A stretch of DNA of 64,000 nucleotides from Pseudomonas sp. DY-1 (GTDB lineage: Bacteria > Pseudomonadota > Gammaproteobacteria > Pseudomonadales > Pseudomonadaceae): NCBI RefSeq assembly GCF_003626975.1, contig NZ_CP032616.1, positions 4,502,001 to 4,566,000 on the forward strand, in the 5' to 3' direction. Positions within the stretch are counted from its first letter, which is position 1. Every line of letters begins with the position of its first letter. The position numbers were made by a program, and so were the translations under genes. The notes under the pieces were generated by a model. The model made no database searches, was not told the DNA's origin, and worked only from the letters and a program-made list of their open reading frames with translations. This document shows positions 9,471 through 64,000 of the stretch, in pieces.

Positions 9471-10202
9471 ATGAGCAGCAACCCGACCGCTGAAGGCGAA
9501 AAGATCCTTATTGTCGATGACGACGCCCGTCTGCGGCGCCTTCTCGAGCGTTTCCTCGACGAGCAGGGCTTTCGCGTGCGCGCCGTGGAGAACGTCGAGC
9601 AGATGGATCGCCTGCTGGCTCGCGAACTCTTCAATCTGGTGGTGCTCGACCTGATGCTGCCCGGCGAGGATGGCCTGTCGGCCTGCCGCCGGCTGCGCGC
9701 ATCGAACAATCAGGTGCCGATCATCATGCTCACCGCCAAGGGCGACGAGACCAGCCGTATCCAGGGCCTGGAACTGGGCGCCGACGACTATCTGGCCAAG
9801 CCGTTCAACCCCCGCGAGTTGCTGGCGCGGATCAAGGCCGTGCTGCGTCGCCAGGCACCGCAGGTGCCGGGTGCCCCGGCCAGCGAGGACGAAAGCGTCA
9901 GCTTCGGCGAGTACGAGCTGTCCCTGGCTACCCGCGAGTTGAAGAAGGGCGACGACGTGCAGATGCTCACCACCGGTGAGTTCGCCGTACTCAAGGCGCT
10001 GGTCCAGCATGCCCGCGAGCCACTGACCCGCGACAAGCTGATGAATCTAGCCCGTGGTCGCGAGTGGGACGCCCTGGAGCGCTCCATCGACGTGCAGATT
10101 TCCCGCCTGCGCCGGCTGATCGAGCCAGACCCTTCCAAGCCGCGCTATATCCAGACCGTCTGGGGCGTCGGCTACGTGTTCGTGCCCGATGGCAACAAGT
10201 GA
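9471..10202 (+). CDS. ompR: OmpR-family response regulator (AmgR/OmpR)
   Basis: This 243-residue regulator has a receiver domain, with acidic pocket D16-D17-D18 and phospho-acceptor D60 in LVVLDLMLPGEDG. The switch Thr and Lys are in IIMLTAKGDE and DDYLAKPFNP. A C-terminal winged helix follows (LTTGEFAVLKALV, SRLRRLIEPDPSKPRYIQTVWGVGYVF in part). The ATG follows AGGAG by 6 bases. It is in an operon with the sensor kinase 43 bases downstream. In P. aeruginosa the orthologous pair AmgRS answers cell-envelope stress, including aminoglycoside-induced membrane damage; applying that role here is inference from synteny. Confidence 0.94.
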   Translation: MSSNPTAEGEKILIVDDDARLRRLLERFLDEQGFRVRAVENVEQMDRLLARELFNLVVLDLMLPGEDGLSACRRLRASNNQVPIIMLTAKGDETSRIQGLELGADDYLAKPFNPRELLARIKAVLRRQAPQVPGAPASEDESVSFGEYELSLATRELKKGDDVQMLTTGEFAVLKALVQHAREPLTRDKLMNLARGREWDALERSIDVQISRLRRLIEPDPSKPRYIQTVWGVGYVFVPDGNK

Positions 10203-10245
10203 ACGCGCGGCGGGGGTTCCCGCCGCCGGGCAACCCAGGGGGGTG

Positions 10246-11559
10246 ATGCGCGCCCCCTATTGGTTCCCGCAGAGCTTCTTCTCACGCACCCTCTGGCTGG
10301 TGCTCATCGTCGTCCTGTTCTCCAAGGCGCTGACCCTGGTTTACCTGATGATGAACGAGGACGTGCTGGTGGATCGTCAGTACAGCCACGGTGCGGCGCT
10401 GACCCTGCGCGCCTACTGGGCGGCGAGTGAAGAAGAGCGTCACGACCTGGCCAAGGCAGCTGGCCTCAAGCGGGTCACCCGCGACGCTGTGCCGGCCAGC
10501 GAGCAGCACTGGCCCTACAGCGAAATCTTCCAGCGCCAGATGCAGTCCGAGCTCGGTCCGGGTACCGAAGTGCGCCTGCGTGCGCAAAGCCCGCCAGCGC
10601 TCTGGGTCCACGCGCCGGAGCTGGGGCCGGACTGGGTGCGCATCCCGCTTTATCCACACCCCCTGCGTGGCCAGCGTATCTGGAGTGTGCTCGGCTGGTT
10701 CCTCGGCATCGGCCTGCTGTCCACCGCTGCCGCGTGGATTTTCGTGCGCCAGCTCAACGCGCCGCTAAAGCGCCTCGTCTTCGCCGCCCGCCAGGTTGGC
10801 CAGGGTCGCAGTGTGCGCCTGCCGGTAAGCGACACGCCGAGCGAGATGGCCGAGGTGTATCGCGCCTTCAACCAGATGGCTGAAGACGTCGAGCGCGGTG
10901 CCCGCGAGCGCGAGCTGATGCTCGCCGGCGTCTCCCACGACCTGCGCACGCCGCTCACGCGCCTGCGCCTGTCGCTGGAGCTGATGAGCAACGACTCCGA
11001 GCTGACCGACGACATGGTCCGCGACATCGAGGACATGGACGCCATCCTCGACCAGTTCCTCGCCTTTATCCGCGACGGCCGTGATGAGCGCGTGGAAGAG
11101 CTGGACCTTGGCGAGCTGGTGAGTGAGGTGGTGGCGCCCTACAACCAGCAGGAGGAGCAGGTACGCCTGTGCCTGGAACCACTGCCGCCGTTCCCGTTGC
11201 GGCGGGTTTCGATCAAGCGGCTGTTGGTGAATCTGATCGAGAATGCGCTGCGATACGGCGGTAACGGTGTCGAAGTTGCAGCTTTTGTGGCGGGTGACAA
11301 TGCCGCGCCCTACGTCGTGCTGAGTGTGCTGGATCGCGGTCAGGGCATCGATCCCGCTGAGCTGCAGGACATCTTCAACCCCTTCATCCGGGGTGACCGA
11401 GCCCGTGGCGGCAAGGGCACCGGCCTGGGCCTGGCCATCGTCAAGCGCATCGCCGCGCAGCACGGCGGCAGCGTCGAACTGCGCAACCGCTCTGGTGGTG
11501 GCCTGGAAGCACGCGTCTGCCTGCCCCTGGGACTAATGCTCCCCCGCGACGCTGTCTAG
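10246..11559 (+). CDS. envZ: EnvZ-type sensor histidine kinase (AmgS/EnvZ)
   Basis: The 437-residue inner-membrane kinase has a first transmembrane helix at about 15-36, a periplasmic sensor region to about 143, and a second helix at about 144-167. A HAMP domain follows (RQLNAPLKRLVFAARQVGQG). The H box has phospho-accepting H231 in AGVSHDLRTPLTRLRLS, and the ATPase boxes are NLIENALRYGG, DRGQGID and GKGTGLGLAIVKRI. I prefer ATG 10246, which follows a G-rich AGGGGGG; an in-frame upstream ATG at 10189 overlaps ompR and is not family-like. It phosphorylates and dephosphorylates the adjacent OmpR. Confidence 0.93.
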   Translation: MRAPYWFPQSFFSRTLWLVLIVVLFSKALTLVYLMMNEDVLVDRQYSHGAALTLRAYWAASEEERHDLAKAAGLKRVTRDAVPASEQHWPYSEIFQRQMQSELGPGTEVRLRAQSPPALWVHAPELGPDWVRIPLYPHPLRGQRIWSVLGWFLGIGLLSTAAAWIFVRQLNAPLKRLVFAARQVGQGRSVRLPVSDTPSEMAEVYRAFNQMAEDVERGARERELMLAGVSHDLRTPLTRLRLSLELMSNDSELTDDMVRDIEDMDAILDQFLAFIRDGRDERVEELDLGELVSEVVAPYNQQEEQVRLCLEPLPPFPLRRVSIKRLLVNLIENALRYGGNGVEVAAFVAGDNAAPYVVLSVLDRGQGIDPAELQDIFNPFIRGDRARGGKGTGLGLAIVKRIAAQHGGSVELRNRSGGGLEARVCLPLGLMLPRDAV

Positions 11560-51061: not shown

Positions 51062-51928
51062 TCAGCGTGGCTGGCGCAGGCACTCTGCCAAGGCAGTGCG
51101 CCAGTCCGGCAGGCTGACCTGCCAGTCCTGCGCCAGCTTGCGGCCGTCCAGACGCGAGTTCAGGGGGCGCTTGGCGGGCGTCGGGTACTCGCTGGAAGGA
51201 ATGGGCACCAGGCGCGCGCAGGGTTTGCCGGCAGCTTTCAACTGGTCAGCAATCGCGCTGGCGAAGCCGAACCAGGATGTCTCGCCCTGATTGGTCAGGT
51301 GGTAGATGCCCCAATTGCGGTTGCCCGCCTGCCACTTGTCAATCAACTGGCTAGTGGCTTGCGCAATGCTGCCAGCCCAGGTCGGCGCCCCCACCTGATC
51401 ATCCACGACTCGCAGCTCTTCGCGCTCCTGCAGCAGGCGCTGCATGGTGAGCAGGAAGTTGCGCCCATGCAGTGAATACACCCAGCTGGTACGGAGAATC
51501 AGGTATTGCCCGCCGACAGCCTGGATCGCCTGCTCGCCAGCGAGCTTGCTCTGGCCGTAGACGCCCAGCGGATGGGGGGCGTCCGCTTCGGTATAGGCCG
51601 CGGTGCCGCTGCCATTGAACACGTAGTCGGTGGAGTAGTGGAACAGCGGGATACCGAGCGCCGCCGCTTCCTCTGCCAGCACGCGCGGCGCGGTGGCATT
51701 GAGGGCGAAGGCGGCTTCCGGCTCGCTCTCGGCCAGGTCCACGGCTGTATGGGCGGCGGCATTGATCAGCAGGTCGGGCGCTTCGCCACGCACCCGCTGA
51801 CGGATCTGCTCTGGATCGGCAAGGTCGAGTTGGTCACGACCGAGGGCAGTGACCTCGGCCTTGCCGGCCAGGACGCGTTTCAGCTCGCGAGCGACCTGGC
51901 CGCTGCTGCCATTGACGAGGATCTTCAT
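51062..51928 (-). CDS. rmlD: dTDP-4-dehydrorhamnose reductase
   Basis: The 288-residue reductase finishes dTDP-L-rhamnose. It has an N-terminal nucleotide-binding loop ([18 protein letters not shown]), STDYVFNGSG, and the catalytic YxxxK in GVYGQSKLAGEQ. Its ATG overlaps the rmlC stop as ATGA. The gene order rmlBACD differs from the P. aeruginosa rmlBDAC order. Confidence 0.95.
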   Translation of the reverse strand: MKILVNGSSGQVARELKRVLAGKAEVTALGRDQLDLADPEQIRQRVRGEAPDLLINAAAHTAVDLAESEPEAAFALNATAPRVLAEEAAALGIPLFHYSTDYVFNGSGTAAYTEADAPHPLGVYGQSKLAGEQAIQAVGGQYLILRTSWVYSLHGRNFLLTMQRLLQEREELRVVDDQVGAPTWAGSIAQATSQLIDKWQAGNRNWGIYHLTNQGETSWFGFASAIADQLKAAGKPCARLVPIPSSEYPTPAKRPLNSRLDGRKLAQDWQVSLPDWRTALAECLRQPR

Positions 51929-52470
51929 TCGAAAACGTCCGCGTCCTTGAAGCTGGCACCGGCCTGGTCCTTGGCGGAGAGCTGCGGGGCCTCCGCAAAC
52001 GGCCAGTCGATGGCGAGGTCCGGATCATCCCAGCGAATGCAGCGCTCGTGCTCGGGCGCGTAGTAGTCGGTGGTCTTGTAGAGGAACTCGGCGTACTCGC
52101 TCAGTACCAGGAAGCCGTGGGCGAAACCTTCGGGTACCCAGAGCTGGCGCTTGTTCTCGGCGGAGAGGTGGACACCCACCCAGCGGCCGAAGGTAGGCGA
52201 GTTGCGGCGAATGTCCACCGCCACGTCGAATACCTCGCCGTGGACCACCCGCACCAACTTGCCCTGCGCCTGCTGCAGTTGATAGTGCAGGCCACGCAGG
52301 ACACCGCGCTGGGAGCGCGAGTGGTTGTCCTGGACGAACTCGCGCTCGACACCGGCGGCTTTCGCGAAATTGCGGGCGTTGAAGCTTTCGTAGAAGAACC
52401 CGCGCTCGTCTCCGAACACCGTGGGTTCGAGGATCAATACGCCAGGGAGTGCAGTGGCTACCACTTTCAT
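51925..52470 (-). CDS. rmlC: dTDP-4-dehydrorhamnose 3,5-epimerase
   Basis: The 181-residue cupin epimerase shows [17 protein letters not shown], the active-site RGLHYQ ([19 protein letters not shown] region) and [16 protein letters not shown]. It starts inside the rmlA stop (ATGA) and ends inside the rmlD start, so translation is coupled on both sides. Confidence 0.95.
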
Positions 52471-53339
52471 TCGACTTCACCTGCCAGCTTGTACAGATAC
52501 TGGCCGTAGCCCGTTTTTCCGAATGCCTTGGCCTGGCTTATCAACTGGGTCTTGTCGATCCAGCCATTCTGGAAGGCGATCTCTTCCAGGCACGCGACCT
52601 TCAGGCCCTGGCGGTGCTCGATGGTTTGCACGTACTGGGCTGCTTCCAGCAGGCTGTCATGGGTGCCGGTATCGAGCCAGGCGAAGCCACGACCCAGGCG
52701 CTCGACGCGCAGGTCGCCACGGTGAAGATAGGCATTGTTGACATCGGTGATCTCGAGTTCGCCGCGAGCGGAAGGCTTCACCGCCTTGGCGATTTCAATC
52801 ACGTCATTGTCGTAGAAGTACAGGCCAGTGACGGCGTAGCTGGAGCGAGGCTTCAGCGGCTTCTCCTCGATGGAGATCACGCGATTGCTGTTGTCGAACT
52901 CAACGACACCAAAGCGCTCGGGGTCATTCACCCAGTAGCCGAAGACCGTTGCACCAGACGAATTGCTGGCGGCGCGCTTGAGCTGGTCGGAGAAATGCTG
53001 GCCGTGGAAGATGTTGTCGCCAAGGATCAGGCAAACCGAGTCGTCGCCGATGAATTCTTCGCCAATGAGGAAGGCCTGTGCCAGGCCATCGGGGGACGGC
53101 TGGACGGCATAGCTGATGGCGACGCCGAACTGACTCCCGTCTCCCAGCAGATTGCGATACTGCGGCAGGTCGTGGGGTGTGGATATCAGCAGGATCTCGC
53201 GAATTCCGGCGAGCATGAGGACCGAAAGCGGATAGTAGACCATCGGTTTGTCGTAGATCGGCAGCAACTGCTTGGACACCCCCAAGGTGATCGGATGCAG
53301 TCGGGTACCGGAACCACCGGCGAGAATTATCCCTTTCAT
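52467..53339 (-). CDS. rmlA: Glucose-1-phosphate thymidylyltransferase
   Basis: The 290-residue enzyme makes dTDP-glucose from dTTP and glucose-1-phosphate. The signature [18 protein letters not shown] and [16 protein letters not shown] are intact. ATG 53339 overlaps the rmlB stop as ATGA; the longer frame to 53417 overlaps rmlB and is rejected. Confidence 0.96.
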
Positions 53340-54400
53340 GCTGTTGCTCCCAGTCTTTCTCGTTGATAGCTGCCGTCCTGAACGCGTCGGCACCATTGCA
53401 GATTGTCCAGATACCACTCAACGGTCTTGTGCAGGCCTGTCTCGAAGGTCTCGGCCGGCACCCAGCCCAGCTCCCGCTCGATCTTGCTGGCGTCGATGGC
53501 ATAGCGCAGGTCGTGGCCCGGGCGGTCCTTGACGAAGGTGATCAGCTCTTCGAAGCGGGAGATGCCAGACGGCTTCTGCGGCGCGAGTTCGTCCAGGAGG
53601 CCGCAGATGGTGCGCACCACATCGAGGTTCTTCTGCTCATTGTGGCCACCGATGTTGTAGGTCTCCCCCACCGTGCCGCGCGTGACCACTTCCACCAATG
53701 CGCGGGCATGGTCTTCGACGAACAGCCAGTCACGCACCTGCTGGCCGTCGCCATAGACAGGCAGCGGCTTCCCTTCGAGCGCGTTGAGGATGATCAGCGG
53801 GATGAGCTTTTCAGGGAAATGGTAGGGACCATAGTTGTTCGAGCAATTGGTCAGCAGCACGGGCAGGCCATAGGTGCGATTCCAGGCGCGAACCAGGTGG
53901 TCGGACGCGGCCTTGCTGGCGGAGTAGGGCGAGCTGGGGGCATAGGGCGTCGTTTCCGTGAACAGATCGTCGACGCCGTGAAGGTCACCGTAGACCTCGT
54001 CGGTGGAGATGTGGTGGAAGCGGAAGGCCGCCTTGCGTTGCTCATCCAGTCCCAGCCAGTAGGCCCTTACGCTCTCCAGCAAGCTGTAGGTGCCGACGAT
54101 GTTGGTCTGAATGAATGCCGCGGGGCCGTCGATGGAGCGGTCCACGTGGGATTCGGCGGCAAGGTGCATCACCGCATCAGGCTGGAAGCTCGCCAAGGCA
54201 GCGCCCACGGCCGCACTGTCTGCGATGTCGGCCTGCAGGAAACCATAGCGGGGATTGCTGGCAACCGACTCGATGGATTCCAGATTGCCCGCGTAGGTGA
54301 GCTTATCGATGTTGAGCACTTCGTGCTCAGTGCCAGCGATCAGATGGCGGATTAGTGCTGAGCCGATAAATCCGGCTCCTCCAGTAATGATGATTCGCAT
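53336..54400 (-). CDS. rmlB: dTDP-glucose 4,6-dehydratase
   Basis: The 354-residue short-chain dehydrogenase has [15 protein letters not shown] for NAD, the active-site region [11 protein letters not shown], and YxxxK in [16 protein letters not shown]. It is the first gene of rmlBACD, which supplies dTDP-L-rhamnose for surface polysaccharide. It is divergent from the polysaccharide island across a 790-base gap. Confidence 0.96.
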
Positions 54401-55190: not shown

Positions 55191-56186
55191 ATGAGTTTTC
55201 AACTGAAGCAGTTGGCATGGAATACGGGAATTGATGAAAAAAATGCTACCGTGGCCTATCCGCTTTTGGAGAGCAGGGTGGCGATCCTGCTGTGCACGTA
55301 CCAAGGCCAGCGATACCTGTCGGAGCAATTGAGTTCGATTGAGCGGCAGAATCACGCGAACTGGATCGTCTGGGCTTCGGATGATGGCTCGCGTGACGAT
55401 ACCCGGGCAATACTCGAGTGTTTCCAGGAACGATGGGGCAAAAGCCGGGTGTCGATTCAGTCGGGGCCGGCCGGTGGGTTTGCCGCGAACTTCCTGTCGT
55501 TGGTATCGAATACCGAAGTCTCTGCCGACTATTATTCGTTTGCCGATCAGGATGATATCTGGGAGCCAGTCAAGGTAGAGCGCGCGGTCGACTGGTTGCG
55601 CAGCATTCCAAGCCATATTCCGGCGTTGTATTGCGCGAGAACAACCCTGGTGGATGAAGAGAACCGTGAAATCGGATTCTCTCCCTTCTTTGGCAAGCCT
55701 CCTTGTTTTGCCAATGCCTTGGTCCAGAACATAGGTGCGGGCAACACCATGGTGTTCAATGAAGCGGCCCGCAATATCCTTCGTCGTGCCGGCGATATCG
55801 ATGTGGTTTCTCACGATTGGTGGGTTTATCTGGTCGTCAGCGGGTGTGGCGGTAGGGTTTATTACGACTCCAGTCCTTCGCTCCGCTATAGGCAGCATGG
55901 TCGGAATCTGATCGGAAGTAACATGGGTATCTGCGCCCGTGCTGCGCGAGTCCAGATGATGCTTGCGGGTGTCTTCCGTGAATGGAATGACAGAAATGTG
56001 CGTGCTCTGGAAAAAGTGCGCGATGAATTGACCCCGGAAAGTAAGAGGGTACTTGATTTGTTTCTAGAGGCAAGGGCCGGAAGTTTCTTGCCGAGAGTCA
56101 AAGGGCTCATCAAGTCCGGAGTACACCGTCAGACCTTTATGGGTAACCTGGGTCTGATACTTGCTGCCGTGTTTGGAAAAATATGA
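55191..56186 (+). CDS. Family 2 glycosyltransferase
   Basis: The 331-residue GT-A protein has a nucleotide-binding start (VAILLCTYQGQRYLSEQLSS), the first acidic site WASDDGSRDDT, and the metal-binding ADQDDIW (DQDD at 119-122), as in rhamnosyl- and other GT2 transferases. AGGAAGGA precedes the ATG. It opens the plus-strand polysaccharide operon. It probably adds an early sugar, perhaps rhamnose given the adjacent rml genes; the acceptor is unknown. Confidence 0.85.
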   Translation: MSFQLKQLAWNTGIDEKNATVAYPLLESRVAILLCTYQGQRYLSEQLSSIERQNHANWIVWASDDGSRDDTRAILECFQERWGKSRVSIQSGPAGGFAANFLSLVSNTEVSADYYSFADQDDIWEPVKVERAVDWLRSIPSHIPALYCARTTLVDEENREIGFSPFFGKPPCFANALVQNIGAGNTMVFNEAARNILRRAGDIDVVSHDWWVYLVVSGCGGRVYYDSSPSLRYRQHGRNLIGSNMGICARAARVQMMLAGVFREWNDRNVRALEKVRDELTPESKRVLDLFLEARAGSFLPRVKGLIKSGVHRQTFMGNLGLILAAVFGKI

Positions 56187-56340: not shown

Positions 56341-57168
56341 GTGCGCGTTGGCGGGCTGGTTAAATTGAAAGTGGCGACTGGTTATATTTCATATCTTGCA
56401 TCTAATTCCAGATCGATACTTGAAATGGTCTGGAATGAGTTCAATAACAAGTACCTGGCGTCCTACCTTGGATTGTTCTGGGCGTTCGCGCAGCCTGTCT
56501 CCCTGATTGTCGTGATATGGCTGGTTTTCGAGTTGGGCCTTCGCCAAACGAATGAGAACGGCCCTCCCTTTCCACTATGGCTCGCCACTGGCTTGCTGCC
56601 CTGGCTTTTCCTGGTCGAGTCGATAAACGGCTGTTGCAACTCCATCGTCGGGAAAAGGTTTCTCGTGCGTCGAGTGTCTTTCCGCATAAGTTTATTGCCA
56701 ATAATCAGCGTGCTCGTGGCGCTTATTGTCCACCTGGTGCTGGTTTCCCTGCTTCTGAGTGTCCTCGCGCTGATGGGGATTGGGCCGAGTATCTATTGGA
56801 TTCAGATTCCGTACTTCATGCTCTGTGCGCTTGTGCTTGTGCTCGGAGGCGGGTGGTTGATTTCCGCGCTGGTGGTTTTCATTAGCGACATAAAGTACCT
56901 CGTTGCCATATGTATCCAGTTTGGCTTCTGGTGCACTCCTATCGTCTGGGGGCTGGACAGGCTACCTGAGAAATATCAGGTCATCGCCTTTGTAAACCCC
57001 GCGGCTTATATAGTCGATGGCTACAGAAAGTCGCTGTTCGGACAAGAGTGGTTCTTCTCTTCCGGTTGGACCCATACCCTGGCCTTCTGGGCATGGGCGG
57101 TTATTGTCGCGATTGTTGGTGCCACTGTCTTTCGTCGGCTTCGACCACATTTTGCAGATGTAATATGA
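56341..57168 (+). CDS. wzm: Polysaccharide ABC transporter permease Wzm
   Basis: The ABC-2 type permease is about 275 residues with six membrane helices. The signature N-terminal amphipathic stretch is MVWNEFNNKYLASYLGLFWA, followed by LWLATGLLPWLFLVESI and the C-terminal VNPAAYIVDGYRKSLFG, typical of O-antigen and teichoic acid exporters. The start is uncertain (GTG 56341, with later GTG 56371 or ATG 56425). Its stop overlaps the wzt ATG (ATGA). It moves the finished lipid-linked chain across the inner membrane with Wzt. Confidence 0.9.
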   Translation: MRVGGLVKLKVATGYISYLASNSRSILEMVWNEFNNKYLASYLGLFWAFAQPVSLIVVIWLVFELGLRQTNENGPPFPLWLATGLLPWLFLVESINGCCNSIVGKRFLVRRVSFRISLLPIISVLVALIVHLVLVSLLLSVLALMGIGPSIYWIQIPYFMLCALVLVLGGGWLISALVVFISDIKYLVAICIQFGFWCTPIVWGLDRLPEKYQVIAFVNPAAYIVDGYRKSLFGQEWFFSSGWTHTLAFWAWAVIVAIVGATVFRRLRPHFADVI

Positions 57169-58523
57169 CGAACACTGATGATGTTGTTATATCGATTTGC
57201 GGTCTGCGCAAATCGTATAAGGTTTATCGCAAGAACATCGATCGCCTCAAGGAGGCCCTCGATCCGCGCCGTCGTACTTATCACAAGGAGTTTGACGCGC
57301 TGAAAGGGGTTGGTCTTTCCATACGGCGAGGAGAGATTGTCGGGATACTTGGAAGCAACGGGAGTGGCAAAAGTACCCTGCTCAAGATCGTGGCCGGCGT
57401 GCTTCGACAGTCGGAAGGAAAGGTCAAGGTGAATGGTTCCGTTTCGGCACTGCTGGAGTTGGGCGCGGGCTTCAATCCGGAGCAGAGCGGGCTGGAGAAC
57501 ATCTATCTCGCGGGTGTCTTGCGTGGTGTGCCGCGCAAGGTAATGAGGAAAAAGCTCGATGAGATCGTAGAGTTTGCCGACATTGGCGAGTTCATTCACC
57601 AGAAAACCAAATTCTACTCCAGCGGTATGTTCGCCAGGCTCGCCTTTGCCGTATCCATTCATGTGGACCCGGACATCCTGATTATCGATGAGGCACTAAG
57701 TGTGGGCGATGCCGCTTTCAAGAGAAAGTGTTTTGCCAAGTTGGAAGATTTTCGCAAGGCAGGAAAAACCATCCTGCTCGTGTCTCACTCCGAGGCAGCG
57801 ATCACCGAGATGTGCAACAGGGCTGTGCTGATCGATCGCGGGGAAGTGCTGGCGGATGGTCCGGTGAAGGAAACGATCACCAGTTATCTCAAACTGATGA
57901 ACGCAAAAGGCGAGAAGAGAAAGGAAATCCGCGAGGGGATCGTTGCCGGCCAGCTTCTCTCCCCAGCCGTAGACCAGGCCAAGGGCAGCACCCCCGATGC
58001 AGCTCAGCAGCAACGAGCGGCTGACTCGGAGGAGCTCTTTCTGGAGGGGCTCCGCCCTAAGAGCACGGTTGAGTACCCTGCAGAAGGTGCACGATTGCTC
58101 AATGTCAGGATTGAAACCCTGGAGGGACGCAGGGTCAATCGACTGGTGCATGGCAAGCGTTACCGATACGTATACGAGATTGAATTCCACTGCTTATCCC
58201 AGAATGTGTCGTTTGGGATGATGATCAAAACGACTCAGGGGACTGCCTTGTGCGGAGGGAGTTATCCGCAGAAAGATACCTGGATTCGAGAAGTTGCAGC
58301 TGGAGAAGTCAGGGCGGTTACTTGGGAGTTCGACTGCCTGCTAGAGGAAGGAACCTACTTTACGAACTGTGGGGTAATGGCCGATCGGGAAGGGGAGCGG
58401 AGCTACCTCCATCGGATACTCGACGCCTATATGTTTCAAGTGGCACCCCGTGCAGATCGGATCACAACGGCTTGGGTGAATCTCGGTCTGACCGCGAGAT
58501 ATGATGAGAAGGTAGTGACATGA
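57165..58523 (+). CDS. wzt: Polysaccharide ABC transporter ATPase Wzt with C-terminal cargo-binding domain
   Basis: The 452-residue protein has an ABC ATPase at residues 1 to about 250: Walker A GSNGSGKST (63-71), signature YSSGMFARLAFAVSI, Walker B DILIIDEAL, and switch VSHSEAAI. A linker at 250-300 precedes an extra beta-rich C-terminal domain (about 310-445; VSFGMMIKTTQGTALCGGSY). In E. coli O9a Wzt such a domain binds the modified non-reducing end of the finished chain, so export needs a terminal cap. It starts in the wzm stop and ends in the next start, both as ATGA. Confidence 0.9.
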   Translation: MTNTDDVVISICGLRKSYKVYRKNIDRLKEALDPRRRTYHKEFDALKGVGLSIRRGEIVGILGSNGSGKSTLLKIVAGVLRQSEGKVKVNGSVSALLELGAGFNPEQSGLENIYLAGVLRGVPRKVMRKKLDEIVEFADIGEFIHQKTKFYSSGMFARLAFAVSIHVDPDILIIDEALSVGDAAFKRKCFAKLEDFRKAGKTILLVSHSEAAITEMCNRAVLIDRGEVLADGPVKETITSYLKLMNAKGEKRKEIREGIVAGQLLSPAVDQAKGSTPDAAQQQRAADSEELFLEGLRPKSTVEYPAEGARLLNVRIETLEGRRVNRLVHGKRYRYVYEIEFHCLSQNVSFGMMIKTTQGTALCGGSYPQKDTWIREVAAGEVRAVTWEFDCLLEEGTYFTNCGVMADREGERSYLHRILDAYMFQVAPRADRITTAWVNLGLTARYDEKVVT

Positions 58524-60769
58524 GGAAGTGCTTGCTTGTCCTGGGGATGCACCGAAGCGGAACCTCCGCCATGGGCGGGGCGCTGAACTGCGCAGGCGTC
58601 TCCATGGGGCGAGAGTTGCTAGGTGCCGCTGCCGATAACAAGAAGGGGTACTTTGAAAGTAAAGCGATTCAGGTATTCCACGACAGGCGTCTTCTGCCTC
58701 GAATTGGCCGTGATTGGAAGTCCGTGTCACCACTCCCCGCAGCGGGATGGGAATCCAGCGAAGCTGTGGCCGATCTGGTGGCCGAAGCCAAGGAAATCAT
58801 CCTGGACGAATTTGGCGACTCGGCTCTTTTCGGCATAAAGGATCCCCGGATTTCTCTGCTCGTTCCCTTCTGGATGAAAGTTTTTAATGAACTTGGGATC
58901 AGCGTTTGTGTAGTTATCCAGTATCGTCACCCCATCGAAGTTGCGGGGTCCCTGCTGAGCAGGAACAAAACGACTATCGAACAGGGAGTGGCTCTCTGGC
59001 TGGAACATGTCATCAATGCGGAGAGATTTACCCGCAATGTTCCCAGGGTATTTACCCACTATCAGGATCTGCTTGATGATCCTGCTGCCATGCTGCAACG
59101 GATCGCCAAGGGTCTCGATATCGAATGGCCGAGTCCGGCTGACGAAACTGCGGAAAAGCTGGACAAGTTTCTCGAAAAAAACCTGCGTCACCAGTTGAAC
59201 GTGGGTGAGCAGAGCATCAGCGAGTTGCCGGAGATAGTTTCCAGGATCTACTCCGCGCACATGCTGGCGATTTCTCAAGGTTGCAACGAAGACAGTGTTC
59301 TAGGCACCTTCGACGAGTTGAACCTCGCCTATGAAGGATCACAGAAGTTCTTCAGTGACGCTGCCTTGTTGGCCGGCCTGCGTGAGGCGGAGCTCTTCTT
59401 TGATGAAGGAGAAGGGTTCAGCCAGTCGCGGCGAGATAGCCGATACTTTTCAGTGGACTCAAGCGAGAGGGTGTCGCTCGAGTTCGACCTTCCCCGCGAC
59501 GGAGTCGTCGACGTCAGGCTCGATCCCTGCTCGGAAAGTGTAATTGCCGAGTTGTGCGATGTTGAGCTGCTGTATGACGAACGCCCTGCGGAAAGTATAA
59601 AGAAGTATATAAGAACGAACGCAGTGTATCGTTGGGGGGATGTATATTTCTTTGCTGGAGGGGACCCGCAGATCAGATTCAAGGGGCTGGCACAGGAGCA
59701 CTTCGATGGTGCTTGCAAGGTTCGCGTGAGTTTTGATGTTCTGCAGAGCGGCGACCGTTCCGAGAGAATAATCTCTCCGGTTCATCACCTGTTTTCGGAA
59801 GTCAGAAAGCACCAGAAGGAACTCGAAGAAGTACGGGTTGGGCAAGAGCAGCTGAAGTCTGAACGGGACGTTGCGGTCAGCGACAAAGCCCGCGCGGACG
59901 TTGAAATCTCCAGGCTCTCCGGCGAGACGACTGCGCTGAAGGGGCGCATCGAGTTGTTCAAGACCAAGCTCGAGCAGGCGCAAGAGCAGAACGCGAATGA
60001 GCGCGCGGCCAGTCAGCGGCTGAATGAGCTCGTGCAGGAAAAGGATCGCTCCCTGCAGCTGGCGGTGGATCTGGCGAAAGAACTCGATCTGGCCGCCACC
60101 GAAGCACGCGCTGCTGCTGCGGCGAAGGGCGCGGAGGCCGAGCAGGTGAAGGCGAACAGCCAGCTTGAGTTGGCTGCGGCAAACGATCGCATAGCGCAAT
60201 CCATGCAGGCATTGCGTGAGAGCACGGAGGCCAACGAGCAGCAGAGGATGGAGAATCTCCGTCTGGGTGGCGAGCTTGAGGCCGCTCATCAGCTGCATCA
60301 GCAGGTCACCGAGGCCAACCAGAATCTGATCAACGCCAACACGGTGCAACGTGAAGAGCTGAGTGCTTTGAACGAGGCGCGCGTCCGTTTGAGCACTTCG
60401 CTTGAGGAGTTGCAAGGTACGCATCAGCAGGGGCTCGATGCCAATGCACGGCTCAAGCAGGCGCTGGCCGCCGCGCAAGGAGAAGCTAAGGGAACCGAGG
60501 CTCTGCTGCAGGACTCGCGTCGCGAATCCGAGGGCCGTGCGCAGCAGCTGATTCAATGCAAGGACGAGCTGACGCTCTTGCAGAAGGAGATTGATACGCG
60601 CGAGCGAATGTTGCAGGACGCTTCGCTCGAAATACAGCGTACTCGTGCTTCCTTGCATGAAATGACAGAAGAGGCGGATAAGCTGCGTAGCCGATTGGCA
60701 CGAGTCGGCTTGAGCAGAAGTTGGAGATATACCCGCATCCTGAGAAAAATATTAGGGAAAAAGGGGTGA
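58520..60769 (+). CDS. Sulfotransferase-coiled-coil protein, putative chain-terminating ruler
   Basis: The 749-residue protein has three parts. The N-terminal about 290 residues look like a PAPS-type sulfotransferase: the 5'-phosphosulfate loop LVLGMHRSGTSAMGGAL (9-20 region), FGIKDPRISLLVPFW and a 3'-phosphate motif YRHPIEVAGSLLSRN. A beta-rich middle (about 300-410) resembles no domain I recognise. A coiled coil of about 300 residues (about 420-725) full of Glu, Gln, Ala, Leu heptads follows. It ends in a basic aromatic tail (SRSWRYTRILRKILGKKG) like a membrane-binding helix. The start overlaps the wzt stop (ATGA). By position and architecture it parallels WbdD; function is inferred. Confidence 0.8.
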   Translation: MRKCLLVLGMHRSGTSAMGGALNCAGVSMGRELLGAAADNKKGYFESKAIQVFHDRRLLPRIGRDWKSVSPLPAAGWESSEAVADLVAEAKEIILDEFGDSALFGIKDPRISLLVPFWMKVFNELGISVCVVIQYRHPIEVAGSLLSRNKTTIEQGVALWLEHVINAERFTRNVPRVFTHYQDLLDDPAAMLQRIAKGLDIEWPSPADETAEKLDKFLEKNLRHQLNVGEQSISELPEIVSRIYSAHMLAISQGCNEDSVLGTFDELNLAYEGSQKFFSDAALLAGLREAELFFDEGEGFSQSRRDSRYFSVDSSERVSLEFDLPRDGVVDVRLDPCSESVIAELCDVELLYDERPAESIKKYIRTNAVYRWGDVYFFAGGDPQIRFKGLAQEHFDGACKVRVSFDVLQSGDRSERIISPVHHLFSEVRKHQKELEEVRVGQEQLKSERDVAVSDKARADVEISRLSGETTALKGRIELFKTKLEQAQEQNANERAASQRLNELVQEKDRSLQLAVDLAKELDLAATEARAAAAAKGAEAEQVKANSQLELAAANDRIAQSMQALRESTEANEQQRMENLRLGGELEAAHQLHQQVTEANQNLINANTVQREELSALNEARVRLSTSLEELQGTHQQGLDANARLKQALAAAQGEAKGTEALLQDSRRESEGRAQQLIQCKDELTLLQKEIDTRERMLQDASLEIQRTRASLHEMTEEADKLRSRLARVGLSRSWRYTRILRKILGKKG

Positions 60770-60773
60770 AGGA

Positions 60774-63700
60774 ATGAGCTACGGTGTGGGCCAAATGCGC
60801 GAATATATACGTAAGAAACGAATAGAGAAAAGCGGTCTGTTTGATCAGCATTTCTATGTATCGACATACACTGATGTCGTTGAAAGTGACCTTGATCCCC
60901 TCTCCCATTATTACTACATAGGTTGGAAGGAAGGGCGTAGGCCAAACCACTATTTCGACACGAACTGGTATTTGGCAAAGTATCCGGATGTGGTGCGCAC
61001 CGGAGTGAACCCGCTTTATCACTATGCAAAGTATGGGATAAAAGAAGGGCGATACCCATCTGGGGAATTCACCGGGCGAAAAGCGCCTAACGCGGAAGAG
61101 TTGGCCGCCCATAAACCCGCCGCTCAGCGACGTTTTCATGTGGACAGCGCTGCTGTTGCGGCGCTACCACCCGTCGCCAAGCGAAATGAGCTGTCAGGCG
61201 GCGTCCAGGCTCTTCCGGTCGCTGGCAAGAACATGGCCATTTATATCCATGTCGCCAATGCGGATGACCTGGCCTTGGCGATGCCGTTCCTCGTCGATCA
61301 GACCGGGCAATACCGCGTCCATCTTTCCGCCGACAGTACCCAGTACGCGGCAGTCGTCGAGGGCGCGAAGAGGATATCCACGGATATCAAGGTGTCCGAG
61401 CTGGCGCAAGGGCGGAAGTGGTGGAGCTTGCTGCTGCCGCTGCTGAAGGCGGACCGGATGGAGTTCTTCTGCTGCATGAGTACTCAGCAGCTTCGCACCT
61501 GGCAGGATCAGGGCCTCAGTCGCTTGCACCAGGAACGGCTGATCGCCCTCAGCTTCCAGGGGCTGATCGGTTCCGAGGCAGTGCTTTCAAACGTCGTGGA
61601 CGCCTTCGCGCAAAACCCCGATGTCTGGCTCATTGGCTCTGCGCTGTTCCATCGCCCCGTGGCCGCCGCAAGGGGCTTCGATCCTGCGGCTATTCATCCG
61701 ATTCTGGATCGATGCTCTTCCAGCCTGGCGGGTGACTGGAGTTATTTTGCGAACCATATGTTCTGGGCGCGAATCGGCTTGCTGGAGGCGCTAGTGGAGC
61801 TACTCGAGGGCGTGTCCGAGGCTTCGGATCTGGAAGTCGCTGGCGCGGTAAGCCTGCTGCCATTGCTATCAGGGAAGAAGGTCGCGCTGCTTCACGCGCT
61901 CGATCGCTCGGCCCGGGCCCATGGGGTAGAGATACCGCAGTCTGGCGATGTTCCGTATACGAGCAGCTTGAAGAACACCATCATTCAAGAAATGAACCTG
62001 GGGCAGGACTACGATAGGCTTTTGTCGAGCGCCATGGTTGACCAGGAGTTCTATCGAACCCAGTGCGACCAGACCCAGTTCGAAAATTATGATGCGGTAC
62101 TCCACTATCTCCGATTCGGTGCGCATCTGGGGCTGGACCCTAGCGAGAGTTTTTCCACCCGGAAGTACCTCTGGCGCTATCCGGATGTCGCACGAGCCGG
62201 CGTGAACCCCCTGGTTCACTACATAAAGTATGGAGCGGGCCGCCAGGCTACTCCCGTCTTGTCCAGCTCCCGGGGTGATGGTCGATATCGAGTCTTCGTG
62301 TCGTGCTGGCTGAAGAACAAGGAGTCGATACACGACGGGCTATTGGAGCTCTCCGAAAGGTTACTGGCCGATGGCGTGAGGACGACCTTCGTCACCAATG
62401 CTGCGACCTTGCTTTCGGAGCCCGGGGTCGAGGCGCTCTCGACGGACTTCCTAATTTCCAACCTGTACCCCAAGTTGTCTTCCTGCAACGTCAGTTTCCC
62501 CGATTGGTTGACAGAAATTGTGGAGATGACGAGGTGTTGGGAAGAGGTAATGATGACGTCGGGAGGCGCGGGAGGAGACGTCGGCATTGAAGCGCGAGTC
62601 AGATCCGCTTACGCCTTCTGGAAAGTACTTTTTGAAGAGTTCAAGCCGCGGATGATGCTTATCTGGGGCAGTACTGCGCCGCTGAGCAAGCTCCACTACA
62701 GGCTCTGCCAGGATCTTTCCGTTCCTTCGCTGATTATTGAGCGCGGGCATTTCCCTGGAACTATTTCGATTGACCTGCTTGCTCAGTTCGGGCGAGGCGG
62801 AATCAATCTCAGGCCTCACTCCGCCCTGCTCGCCAATGTGAACTGTTCGGAGAGTGACATTCGTCACTATGCTGAGTGGGTGCGCAAGAATCAGGAGTCG
62901 CCCTATTCGAGCAAGAACTCCAAGGAGAACGTAGAGGAACTACTGTCGACCTTCCGTGCCGAGCACCGGAAAATTGTCCTGTTCATTGGCGTCAACGACC
63001 TGGGATCGGGCACGGCTTATGCGGGACGGGTGGGAGTGGAGGAGCACTCGAGTTTGTTCAGTTCCTCCTTGCAGGCGTTCCACGCGGTCAGGGATGCGCT
63101 GCGCGCTATCGATCCAAAAGCGGTGCTCATGTTGAAGCCGCATCCGTCCGACAAGACGAACTATTCAGCTCTGCTTTCGGAAAGCGATGTCCTGGTGGAC
63201 TCCCATAACATCAACTCGCTGATCGTGGCGGCTGATGTTTGCGTTTCCCTGTCCACTACGGCACTGGCCCGGTGCATGCTCGAAGCCAAGGCGACATTGA
63301 ATGTCGGGATATCCGATATCAGCATGAAAGGTGCTGCCTATGAGTGCTCGAGTCTGACCGATATTCCTGTACAGCTCAGGGCTGCGTTGCATGGGGAAGG
63401 GCTCGAAGAGCGTAGCCGTAAGGGCTTTGCGTTTATTAAATATATATTTGAAGAGCAGTTGGTTGGTATCGATGAAACCACTCCTGCGAGACTCGACATA
63501 AGAGATCTGAGTGAATTCATCAGTGGCCGGATAGCATCGAACCTGGTCGTGGGTAAAGTTGATGAGCGACTTCAGGGGCGGAACTTGCTTCGCCGACTCT
63601 TCAATCCTGCCAATCCCATCTTCTACAAGGAAGACTACAGTACGGCCGGCGTGAAGCCCTCCCGTGGTGTGGATGTGGTCATTCCGGTGTACGGCGACGC

Positions 63701-64000
63701 CGCCATCACTAAGGCATGCATAGATAGCGTGCTCCTGGCTAGGGGGCAGGATGATTACCGGATCGTCGTGATCTTCGACGCCAGCCCCTATGACGACGTC
63801 AAGGCGCTGCTGGAGGGCTATCGTTCGACGGAAGGCGTAGTCGTGCTTTTCAATCCCGTCAATGTGGGATATCCCGCTACAGCCAACAGGGGGATGGCCT
63901 ACTCGCAGGATAGGGATGTCATTCTGCTCAATAGCGATACGCTCGTTACCCCAGGGTGGGTAAGCAGGCTGCAGCGCCATGCGTATTCGTCGGACGAGGT
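60774..64000 (+). CDS. Large multi-domain glycosyltransferase, 3' end off the window
   Basis: The frame starts at ATG 60774 (GAAGGA upstream) and is open to the window end, at least 1075 residues. I see an N-terminal YPDV module (about 24-97: WYLAKYPDVVRTGVNPLYHY, then GIKEGRYPS). A second copy lies at about 413-494 (YLWRYPDVARAGVNPLVHYI). Between and after them is a region (about 505-890) with LKPHPSD and VAADVCVSLSTTALARCMLE, like the beta-Kdo/capsule-type transferase fold. A GT2 domain begins near 965 (VDVVIPVYGDAAITKACIDS, LLNSDTLVTPGW). Codons such as ATA, AGA and CGA are frequent at the start. It is likely the chain polymerase. Confidence 0.82.
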   Translation, partial: MSYGVGQMREYIRKKRIEKSGLFDQHFYVSTYTDVVESDLDPLSHYYYIGWKEGRRPNHYFDTNWYLAKYPDVVRTGVNPLYHYAKYGIKEGRYPSGEFTGRKAPNAEELAAHKPAAQRRFHVDSAAVAALPPVAKRNELSGGVQALPVAGKNMAIYIHVANADDLALAMPFLVDQTGQYRVHLSADSTQYAAVVEGAKRISTDIKVSELAQGRKWWSLLLPLLKADRMEFFCCMSTQQLRTWQDQGLSRLHQERLIALSFQGLIGSEAVLSNVVDAFAQNPDVWLIGSALFHRPVAAARGFDPAAIHPILDRCSSSLAGDWSYFANHMFWARIGLLEALVELLEGVSEASDLEVAGAVSLLPLLSGKKVALLHALDRSARAHGVEIPQSGDVPYTSSLKNTIIQEMNLGQDYDRLLSSAMVDQEFYRTQCDQTQFENYDAVLHYLRFGAHLGLDPSESFSTRKYLWRYPDVARAGVNPLVHYIKYGAGRQATPVLSSSRGDGRYRVFVSCWLKNKESIHDGLLELSERLLADGVRTTFVTNAATLLSEPGVEALSTDFLISNLYPKLSSCNVSFPDWLTEIVEMTRCWEEVMMTSGGAGGDVGIEARVRSAYAFWKVLFEEFKPRMMLIWGSTAPLSKLHYRLCQDLSVPSLIIERGHFPGTISIDLLAQFGRGGINLRPHSALLANVNCSESDIRHYAEWVRKNQESPYSSKNSKENVEELLSTFRAEHRKIVLFIGVNDLGSGTAYAGRVGVEEHSSLFSSSLQAFHAVRDALRAIDPKAVLMLKPHPSDKTNYSALLSESDVLVDSHNINSLIVAADVCVSLSTTALARCMLEAKATLNVGISDISMKGAAYECSSLTDIPVQLRAALHGEGLEERSRKGFAFIKYIFEEQLVGIDETTPARLDIRDLSEFISGRIASNLVVGKVDERLQGRNLLRRLFNPANPIFYKEDYSTAGVKPSRGVDVVIPVYGDAAITKACIDSVLLARGQDDYRIVVIFDASPYDDVKALLEGYRSTEGVVVLFNPVNVGYPATANRGMAYSQDRDVILLNSDTLVTPGWVSRLQRHAYSSDE

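Follow-up and report, generated by a model that had tools for sequence, protein, structure and literature searches.

A sulfotransferase/coiled-coil gene beside wzt in Pseudomonas sp. DY-1 as a predicted terminator of O-polysaccharide chains

The window analysed here, a 64,000-nucleotide stretch of the Pseudomonas sp. DY-1 genome (NZ_CP032616.1, positions 4,502,001 to 4,566,000), ends in a run of forward-strand genes for an exported polysaccharide. The wzm gene (56341..57168) encodes a 275-aa ABC-2 membrane subunit of a polysaccharide exporter (PF01061, 52.1 bits), and wzt (57165..58523, 452 aa) encodes an ATP-binding subunit (ABC_tran) with a C-terminal cap-binding domain (CBM). The next gene (58520..60769) encodes a 749-aa sulfotransferase/coiled-coil protein, the predicted chain terminator. 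ATGA overlaps join wzm to wzt (57165-57168) and wzt to the sulfotransferase gene (58520-58523), and a giant glycosyltransferase gene (60774..64000), which runs beyond the window end to a full length of 1229 aa, starts four bases past the end of the sulfotransferase gene. The open reading frames and Pfam matches thus agree with the original prediction, which had described this array of four genes and the ATGA links among the first three. It had missed two features, a modelled beta-sandwich between the sulfotransferase and the coil and an APS kinase gene outside the window.

Immediately upstream of wzm lies a GT2 glycosyltransferase gene (55191..56186, forward strand; PF00535), and the open reading frame list places a dTDP-rhamnose-like set of four neighbouring genes on the reverse strand (51062..54400), which read as rmlB, A, C and D and are a likely source of precursor. 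The giant glycosyltransferase ends in a GT2 domain, and its residues 502-920 share 40% identity with a PF05159-type glycosyltransferase further along the cluster, a protein for which a sequence search returned no PDB relative. The same-strand gene run continues past the window and its last gene encodes an APS kinase (PF01583, 1.7e-64), an enzyme whose product, PAPS, is the donor of sulfate.

Residues 1-250 of the 749-residue protein (58520..59269) adopt a PAPS-sulfotransferase fold in the structure model and contain the sequences LGMHRSGTSA (8-17), KDPR (107-110) and R136..P138..S144, the first and last of which we take to be the 5'-phosphosulfate P-loop and the 3'-phosphate motif. The PAPS-binding residues sought in the original prediction are present, and an alignment of 35 relatives shows little or no variation at the P-loop, KDPR and R..P.....S positions; the best structural matches of the modelled domain are PAPS sulfotransferases, at ~16% structural identity. 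Because the Sulfotransfer_3 match (PF13469) scores 22.5 bits, under the 27-bit Pfam cut-off, the sulfotransferase label leans on these motifs and structural matches besides Pfam. By motifs and fold, the domain is a member of the PAPS-dependent sulfotransferase superfamily, with a predicted activity to match. Pfam searches of the N-terminal part returned sulfotransferase matches only, the methyltransferase (and kinase) of WbdD proper being absent, and the GT99 domain PF21912 gave no match in the protein at E 5 or better.

The model places a beta-sandwich domain at residues ~286-408 (59375..59743); residues 268-425, used as a query, retrieved three close proteins only and no known relatives. It is followed by a predicted coiled coil (residues 412-731; 59753..60712) modelled as helices 412-534, 541-634 and 640-731, and this span of ~320 residues bears out the coil of about 300 residues that had been claimed. 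Among three close homologues there are only two indels (32 and 7 residues), both inside the coil region, and the modelled coil is a candidate length ruler. A C-terminal basic helix with an SxSWRxTxxLR motif (60713..60766), recognised from alignment and model, is a candidate membrane or polymerase anchor. The protein as a whole is most likely WbdD-like in role, yet not WbdD proper. A plasmid tblastn search with the sulfotransferase family matched 49 records, none covering 80% of the query.

The pairing of such genes with wzt extends to other genomes, as had been predicted. In 298 Pseudomonadaceae genomes we found 34 family matches of at least 150 bits, of which 25 have a Wzt_C match no further than 20 kb away, invariably on their own strand, and 9 immediately follow that match. 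The neighbours of wzt were surveyed in a sample of 140 retrieved Wzt_C loci, from which 14 were dropped when the Wzt ORF was not recognised, leaving 126; a further 36 of the 126 were dropped for want of a same-strand gene at -60 to +200 bases. The gene next after wzt is enriched both in coils (53/89 versus 91/926 other ORFs) and in the SxSWRxTxxLR tail motif (30/89 versus 15/926), and by these sequence features the position directly after wzt is a terminator slot. Coil proteins adjoining wzt in the sampled Pseudomonadaceae are methyltransferases in 35 of 56 cases and sulfotransferases, drawn from three Pfam families, in 13; one further locus (L213) also has a sulfotransferase gene immediately after wzt but was scored as 'other' because the called start falls ~100 bases within wzt. 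Sulfotransferases that score higher than the window's occupy the same slot at other loci.

Four coil proteins that adjoin wzt and lack a Pfam assignment (L155, L200, L216 and L217) were considered as further sulfotransferases and rejected. They carry FRSGST-like and WR.P..QWWS motifs; since comparing their profile with that of the window's sulfotransferases gave no match (probability 0.2%) and PF13469 gave just E 0.055, for one protein, they were left out of the sulfotransferase counts.

The APS kinase gene recurs as well. It lies ~8 kb from the sulfotransferase gene in 3/3 congeneric genomes with a full-length gene, genomes in which other APS kinase copies are also present, and APS kinase genes occur in 5/15 sulfotransferase-bearing Wzt_C loci versus 4/111 other Wzt_C loci (p 0.0012).

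The CBM of the window's Wzt (PF14524, 83.5 bits) spans residues 303-438 (58071..58478) and belongs to a different clade from the methyl-cap rows. Of the sulfotransferase-linked CBM rows, 28 of 31 fall in one 30-row clade (SH-aLRT 95), and two loci with a sulfotransferase adjoining wzt (L039 and L169) have CBMs outside it. Arg417 of the window's Wzt (codon 58413-58415) aligns with Trp362 of the Aquifex aeolicus Wzt, whose exporter handles a 3-O-methyl cap and whose pocket Trp stacks on the methyl group (PMC9445017, in part). Arg is found at this position in 23/24 sulfotransferase-adjacent CBM rows and in 7/7 rows with a sulfotransferase nearby, versus Trp in 28 of 35 methyltransferase-linked rows, six of which also have Arg. 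The contrast reflects few events: the CBM tree shows 2 changes and the tree of the nucleotide-binding half (NBD) 4, and there are 3 independent pairs. The window's CBM may recognise an anionic sulfate cap.

We also considered a scenario in which the CBM was exchanged separately from the NBD at every sulfotransferase locus, and dropped it because reduced-set trees of both halves allow one clade of sulfotransferase-linked rows, a clade that is unsupported on either half (22 and 71, reduced set). Conflict between the halves is confined to the four unassigned rows (p-AU 0.0001 for the NBD and 0.46 for the CBM), a group named after the CBM tree had been seen.

On this evidence we think it more likely than not that the gene after wzt encodes a chain-terminating sulfotransferase, which would set up gated export. 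The enzyme would transfer sulfate from PAPS, supplied through the APS kinase at the cluster end, to the non-reducing end of an O-polysaccharide that has grown far enough to meet the enzyme across the predicted coiled-coil ruler, and the sulfate cap would stop elongation. The giant glycosyltransferase would act as the polymerase, positioned close to the coil's membrane-proximal end. The Wzt C-terminal domain, with Arg417 where methyl-cap Wzt has Trp, would read the anionic cap and the Wzm/Wzt exporter would admit finished chains only. The sulfate-capped system of the original prediction is supported in part by the PAPS motifs and fold, the association with the Wzt CBM, the APS kinase and the CBM clade, and its chain-end sulfate, ruler, cap recognition and export gating keep the status of predictions.

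WbdD/Wzt systems have a large polymerase gene after the terminator gene, as the window locus would. Those of E. coli O9a and Klebsiella O3, O5 and O7 pair a coiled-coil terminator beside wzt with a CBM-bearing Wzt (PMC11231755, in part). Their caps are methyl or methyl-phosphate, whereas the catalytic domain at the window locus is a sulfotransferase rather than a methyltransferase or kinase, and the locus differs further in its APS kinase gene and in the modelled beta-sandwich between enzyme and coil. The Kdo-terminated systems WbbB/GT99 (Klebsiella O12) and GT137 (O4) share the coiled-coil terminator, the CBM-bearing Wzt and an anionic cap, here a predicted one (PMC11231755, in part), but there a glycosyltransferase adds a whole sugar, where the window system would add sulfate.

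An alternative that we regard as unlikely is that the sulfotransferase sulfates internal residues of the polymer, with length and export gating set otherwise and the coil merely tethering the enzyme to the assembly complex. The capsules of Vibrio sp. KMM 8419 and Cobetia marina KMM 1449 offer a precedent, as their ABC-exporter clusters contain sulfotransferase and PAPS-synthesis genes and the sulfate is carried on rhamnose of the repeat unit (PMC11641403; PMC11766843, both in part); these are, however, Kps-type loci, and the words Wzt and coiled are absent from the two papers. A genome scan of 80 sulfotransferase loci found 51 without wzt in the retrieved DNA and 12 with a Wzt lacking the CBM, and the sulfotransferase family is therefore not confined to capped export. 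At eight Pseudomonadaceae loci the sulfotransferase/coil gene is not directly after wzt and the CBM is not of the sulfo type. Internal sulfation leaves unexplained, however, why sulfotransferases of three Pfam families occupy the methyltransferase-terminator slot directly after wzt and why the Wzt proteins linked to them share a CBM clade and an Arg. The remaining 17 loci of the scan have a CBM-bearing Wzt, and a CBM profile trained on Pseudomonadaceae called all 15 scorable ones sulfo-type, 2 of the 15 being near-copies of a training row.

It is improbable, in our estimate, that the cap is instead a Kdo-like ulosonic acid and that the sulfotransferase modifies this or another residue without being the terminator. 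The cluster encodes a CMP-Kdo synthetase, a HAD phosphatase, an HMGL-type aldolase and two PF05159-like glycosyltransferase domains, and Kdo is an established cap (PMC11231755; PMC9445017, both in part). Yet the CMP-Kdo gene is on the opposite strand, the coil, a hallmark of terminators (PMC11231755, in part), sits on the sulfotransferase and not on the PF05159 proteins, and the CBM at a locus with GT99 next to wzt (L198) is close to 5hno, unlike the window's. A sulfated ulosonic acid cap would unite this alternative with a sulfotransferase terminator. That the P-loop domain is degenerate or catalyses another transfer, leaving the protein a structural organiser, could account for the sub-threshold PF13469 score and the low structural identity, but is very improbable given the near-invariant motifs, the APS kinase gene in the same cluster and the better-scoring sulfotransferases in the same slot elsewhere.

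The caps known to end such chains and license their export are methyl, methyl-phosphate and Kdo (PMC9445017; PMC11231755, both in part). Searches of an open-access library turned up no description of a sulfate-capped, coil-ruled O-polysaccharide system, a scope outside which a 2019 census of terminators falls. That census, by Mann, Kimber and Whitfield in Glycobiology, reportedly covers terminator chemistries and may already list sulfotransferases. If the terminator reading is true, sulfate is a fourth cap chemistry and another signal that a surface chain is export-ready, the length of a surface glycan is tied to sulfur supply via PAPS, and a lone anionic group stands at the glycan's outer tip, a possible point of contact with phages, tailocins and hosts.

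Tentatively, we extend this proposal to sulfate as a general cap for ABC-exported O-polysaccharides, added by several sulfotransferase families on coil rulers, with the pocket Trp that serves neutral methyl ethers exchanged for Arg with anionic caps, such that one exporter residue may predict chain-end chemistry across Proteobacteria and even in Paenibacillus. Together, CBM clade membership and the residue at the Arg/Trp site give a testable sequence rule for predicting cap chemistry from genomes, and a prospective test of CBM type was positive but modest. Its design, planned as 40 retrieved loci scored with profiles of 14 and 28 rows, was altered: 20 loci were retrieved, all called methyl-type (one call weak), and the remaining 20 were search-scored with a 10-row and a 13-row profile, which left 4 unclear. 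A sulfotransferase was present in 3/7 sulfo-type loci versus 1/29 methyl-type loci (p 0.018), with Sulfotransfer_1 searched in 7 of the 20 search-scored loci only, and a stricter cut chosen post hoc gave 3/5 versus 0/22. None was found for four of the seven sulfo-type calls, and in the single methyl-type locus that has one the gene is on the opposite strand. One of the 20 retrieved loci (L229) has a weak, 25.6-bit sulfotransferase-like match.

The pairing of a Wzt carrying a C-terminal cap-binding domain (CBM; Wzt_C, PF14524) with a sulfotransferase/coiled-coil protein, proposed in the original prediction, is borne out by homology search. An alignment built on the window sulfotransferase (58520..60769 on the forward strand, 749 aa, directly after wzt) gave 54 listed matches in 35 of 298 Pseudomonadaceae genomes, and at least 25 of the 34 matches of ≥150 bits have a listed Wzt_C match no more than 20 kb away (chance p ~1e-31 at generous odds of 3% per match). 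All 25 are on the Wzt_C strand and 24 are downstream of wzt. Nine matches of ≥150 bits directly follow Wzt_C, 38–75 bases from the domain match, and none of the 20 weaker matches (<150 bits) in the 298 genomes does so. A profile scan of genome contigs found at least 80 sulfotransferase loci, and in at least nine the sulfotransferase starts −19 to +35 bases from the end of a CBM-bearing wzt; the hosts are Pseudomonas, a Pseudomonadales bin, Dyella, Rhodanobacter, a Desulfobacterales bin and the Gram-positive Paenibacillus sedimenti (L069, where the sulfotransferase gene also encodes a coil). A sulfotransferase/coil gene adjoins wzt in a Saprospiraceae bin as well (L013), where Wzt has no CBM.

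The gene slot after wzt was surveyed through PF14524, which matched in 116 of the 298 genomes. A Wzt ORF was recognised in 126 of 140 places fetched among the matches listed, and in 90 of the 126 the gene that comes next on the same strand lies −60 to +200 bases away. Because a coil of ≥60 residues by a heuristic (53 of 89 next genes of ≥250 aa vs 91 of 926 other same-strand ORFs) and an SxSWRxTxPLR-like tail (30/89 vs 15/926) are both enriched in the next genes, this slot is the site of coiled-coil terminators. Sulfotransferases make up 13 of 56 coil-bearing next-gene proteins (ten matching PF13469, two PF03567 and one a custom profile) and methyltransferases 35, by Pfam counts and clusters; the rest are one GT99 (Kdo type), one pyruvyltransferase, one hexapeptide and one DUF4915 protein and four without a Pfam family. 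The sulfotransferase of L177 matches PF00685 best. In L199 the gene directly after wzt (9889-10908) encodes a polysaccharide pyruvyltransferase joined to a coil that bears an SxSFxxTxPLR tail, a candidate for adding a pyruvate cap. Coiled-coil proteins without a Pfam family follow wzt in L155 (7425-8954), L200, L216 and L217 and carry FRSGST and WR.P..QWWS motifs; the Wzt CBMs of these loci have Arg at the position discussed below and group with the sulfotransferase clade, and their ATP-binding halves (NBDs) with methyl-type Wzt. These proteins are possibly an unrecognised sulfotransferase family.

In Aquifex aeolicus Wzt, Trp362 stacks against the 3-O-methyl cap (PMC9445017), and this position aligns with Arg417 of the window Wzt. 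Over 142 Wzt rows, Arg occupies this position in 23 of 24 whose wzt adjoins a sulfotransferase gene (Leu in L169) and in 7/7 with one nearby; the 35 methyltransferase rows have Trp in 28, Arg in six and Thr in one, a contrast that reflects few independent events. Trp is also found in 49 of 68 unlabelled rows. Structure 2r5o, which we take to be the E. coli O9a Wzt domain for a methyl-phosphate cap, has Arg, which fits an anionic cap. With this column left out, the CBM tree places 28 of 31 sulfotransferase-linked rows in one 30-row set (SH-aLRT 95) and leaves L039 and L169 outside; the set's other two members are L173 and L223, the latter with an APS kinase adjoining wzt and a sulfotransferase 7.4 kb upstream. 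The NBD tree clusters the sulfotransferase-linked rows too (seven changes vs five on the CBM tree), so a CBM/NBD split is unsupported for them. At least four sulfotransferase sequence types, with GMHRSGTS, LPRSGST, YPRSGNT and TPKVACTS loops, accompany the sulfo-type CBM, which argues that these loci share a product rather than an enzyme lineage.

The Pseudomonadaceae sulfotransferase-row CBM profile far outscored the methyl profile in 15/15 scorable loci of the contig scan, two of which (L036, L042) nearly duplicate training row L226. Under a rule written beforehand, 40 Wzt_C loci from Gammaproteobacteria outside Pseudomonadaceae, the second 20 scored by search rather than sequence and with smaller profiles, gave seven sulfo-type, 29 methyl-type and four unclear calls. 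A sulfotransferase was found in 3/7 sulfo-type vs 1/29 methyl-type loci (p 0.018, or 0.040 with a weak L229 match counted). Among the four sulfo-type calls that missed, wzt is followed in G422 by a coil protein in which no sulfotransferase was recognised, G363 carries its sulfotransferase on a different contig, and the calls for G591 and G622 were weak.

By analogy with WbdD (PMC11231755), the window system likely has its polymerase working where the coil meets the membrane, with the capping enzyme held at the opposite end. Once a chain had grown enough to reach that sulfotransferase, it would be sulfated and stop growing, and the Wzt CBM would then recognise it. Length differences among three close homologues, indels of 32 and 7 residues, are confined to the coil (sulfotransferase domain identities 96% and 78%), the pattern expected of a tunable ruler.

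Sulfate may instead be placed within the polymer, as is documented for ABC-exported capsules (PMC11641403, PMC11766843). Against a sulfate cap, most of the 80 loci listed from the contig scan show no CBM-bearing Wzt in the DNA retrieved (17 have one, 12 have Wzt without CBM and 51 neither), and in eight Pseudomonadaceae loci (L168, L182, L187, L190, L191, L192, L193, L195) the sulfotransferase/coil gene is 5–8 kb downstream of a wzt with an unrelated CBM. These eight have Lys at the Arg/Trp position and a slot gene of no assigned family or unlisted. A Kdo-type cap in place of sulfate is possible, given the CMP-Kdo genes in the cluster.

An APS kinase occurs in 5/15 Wzt_C loci with the window's sulfotransferase family vs 4/111 without (p 0.0012), and two of those four (L174, L223) hold sulfotransferases by other evidence. 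Among 18 genomes of the genus searched, three have a full-length sulfotransferase gene, each with an APS kinase ~8 kb downstream, and one more has a 30% identical match; genomes without the full-length gene can also hold standalone APS kinases, and the DY-1 genome has three further matches besides the cluster copy.

That copy (PF01583, 1.7e-64) belongs to a gene set in the stretch just past the window (L002:3833-10065). Ahead of it on the same strand are an HMGL-type aldolase whose C-terminal half is additional, an acyltransferase and a PF05159-type glycosyltransferase; the last shares 40% identity with residues 502-920 of the giant glycosyltransferase (60774.., forward strand, 1229 aa). Genes for an HAD phosphatase and for a CMP-Kdo synthetase follow on the opposite strand. 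Apart from the kinase, this gene set points to a polymer containing an unusual ulosonic acid. L174 again has the aldolase, CMP-Kdo gene and APS kinase, there alongside a different sulfotransferase type.

An open-access literature search, with a 2019 Glycobiology census outside its reach, found no paper joining Wzt, sulfotransferase, coiled coil and O-antigen; the abstract of that census of terminator chemistry reportedly mentions predicted new chemistries. Elsewhere in the window, the Pseudomonas sRNA P34 (31927-32327, 54.2 bits) is the sole Rfam family above its cut-off.
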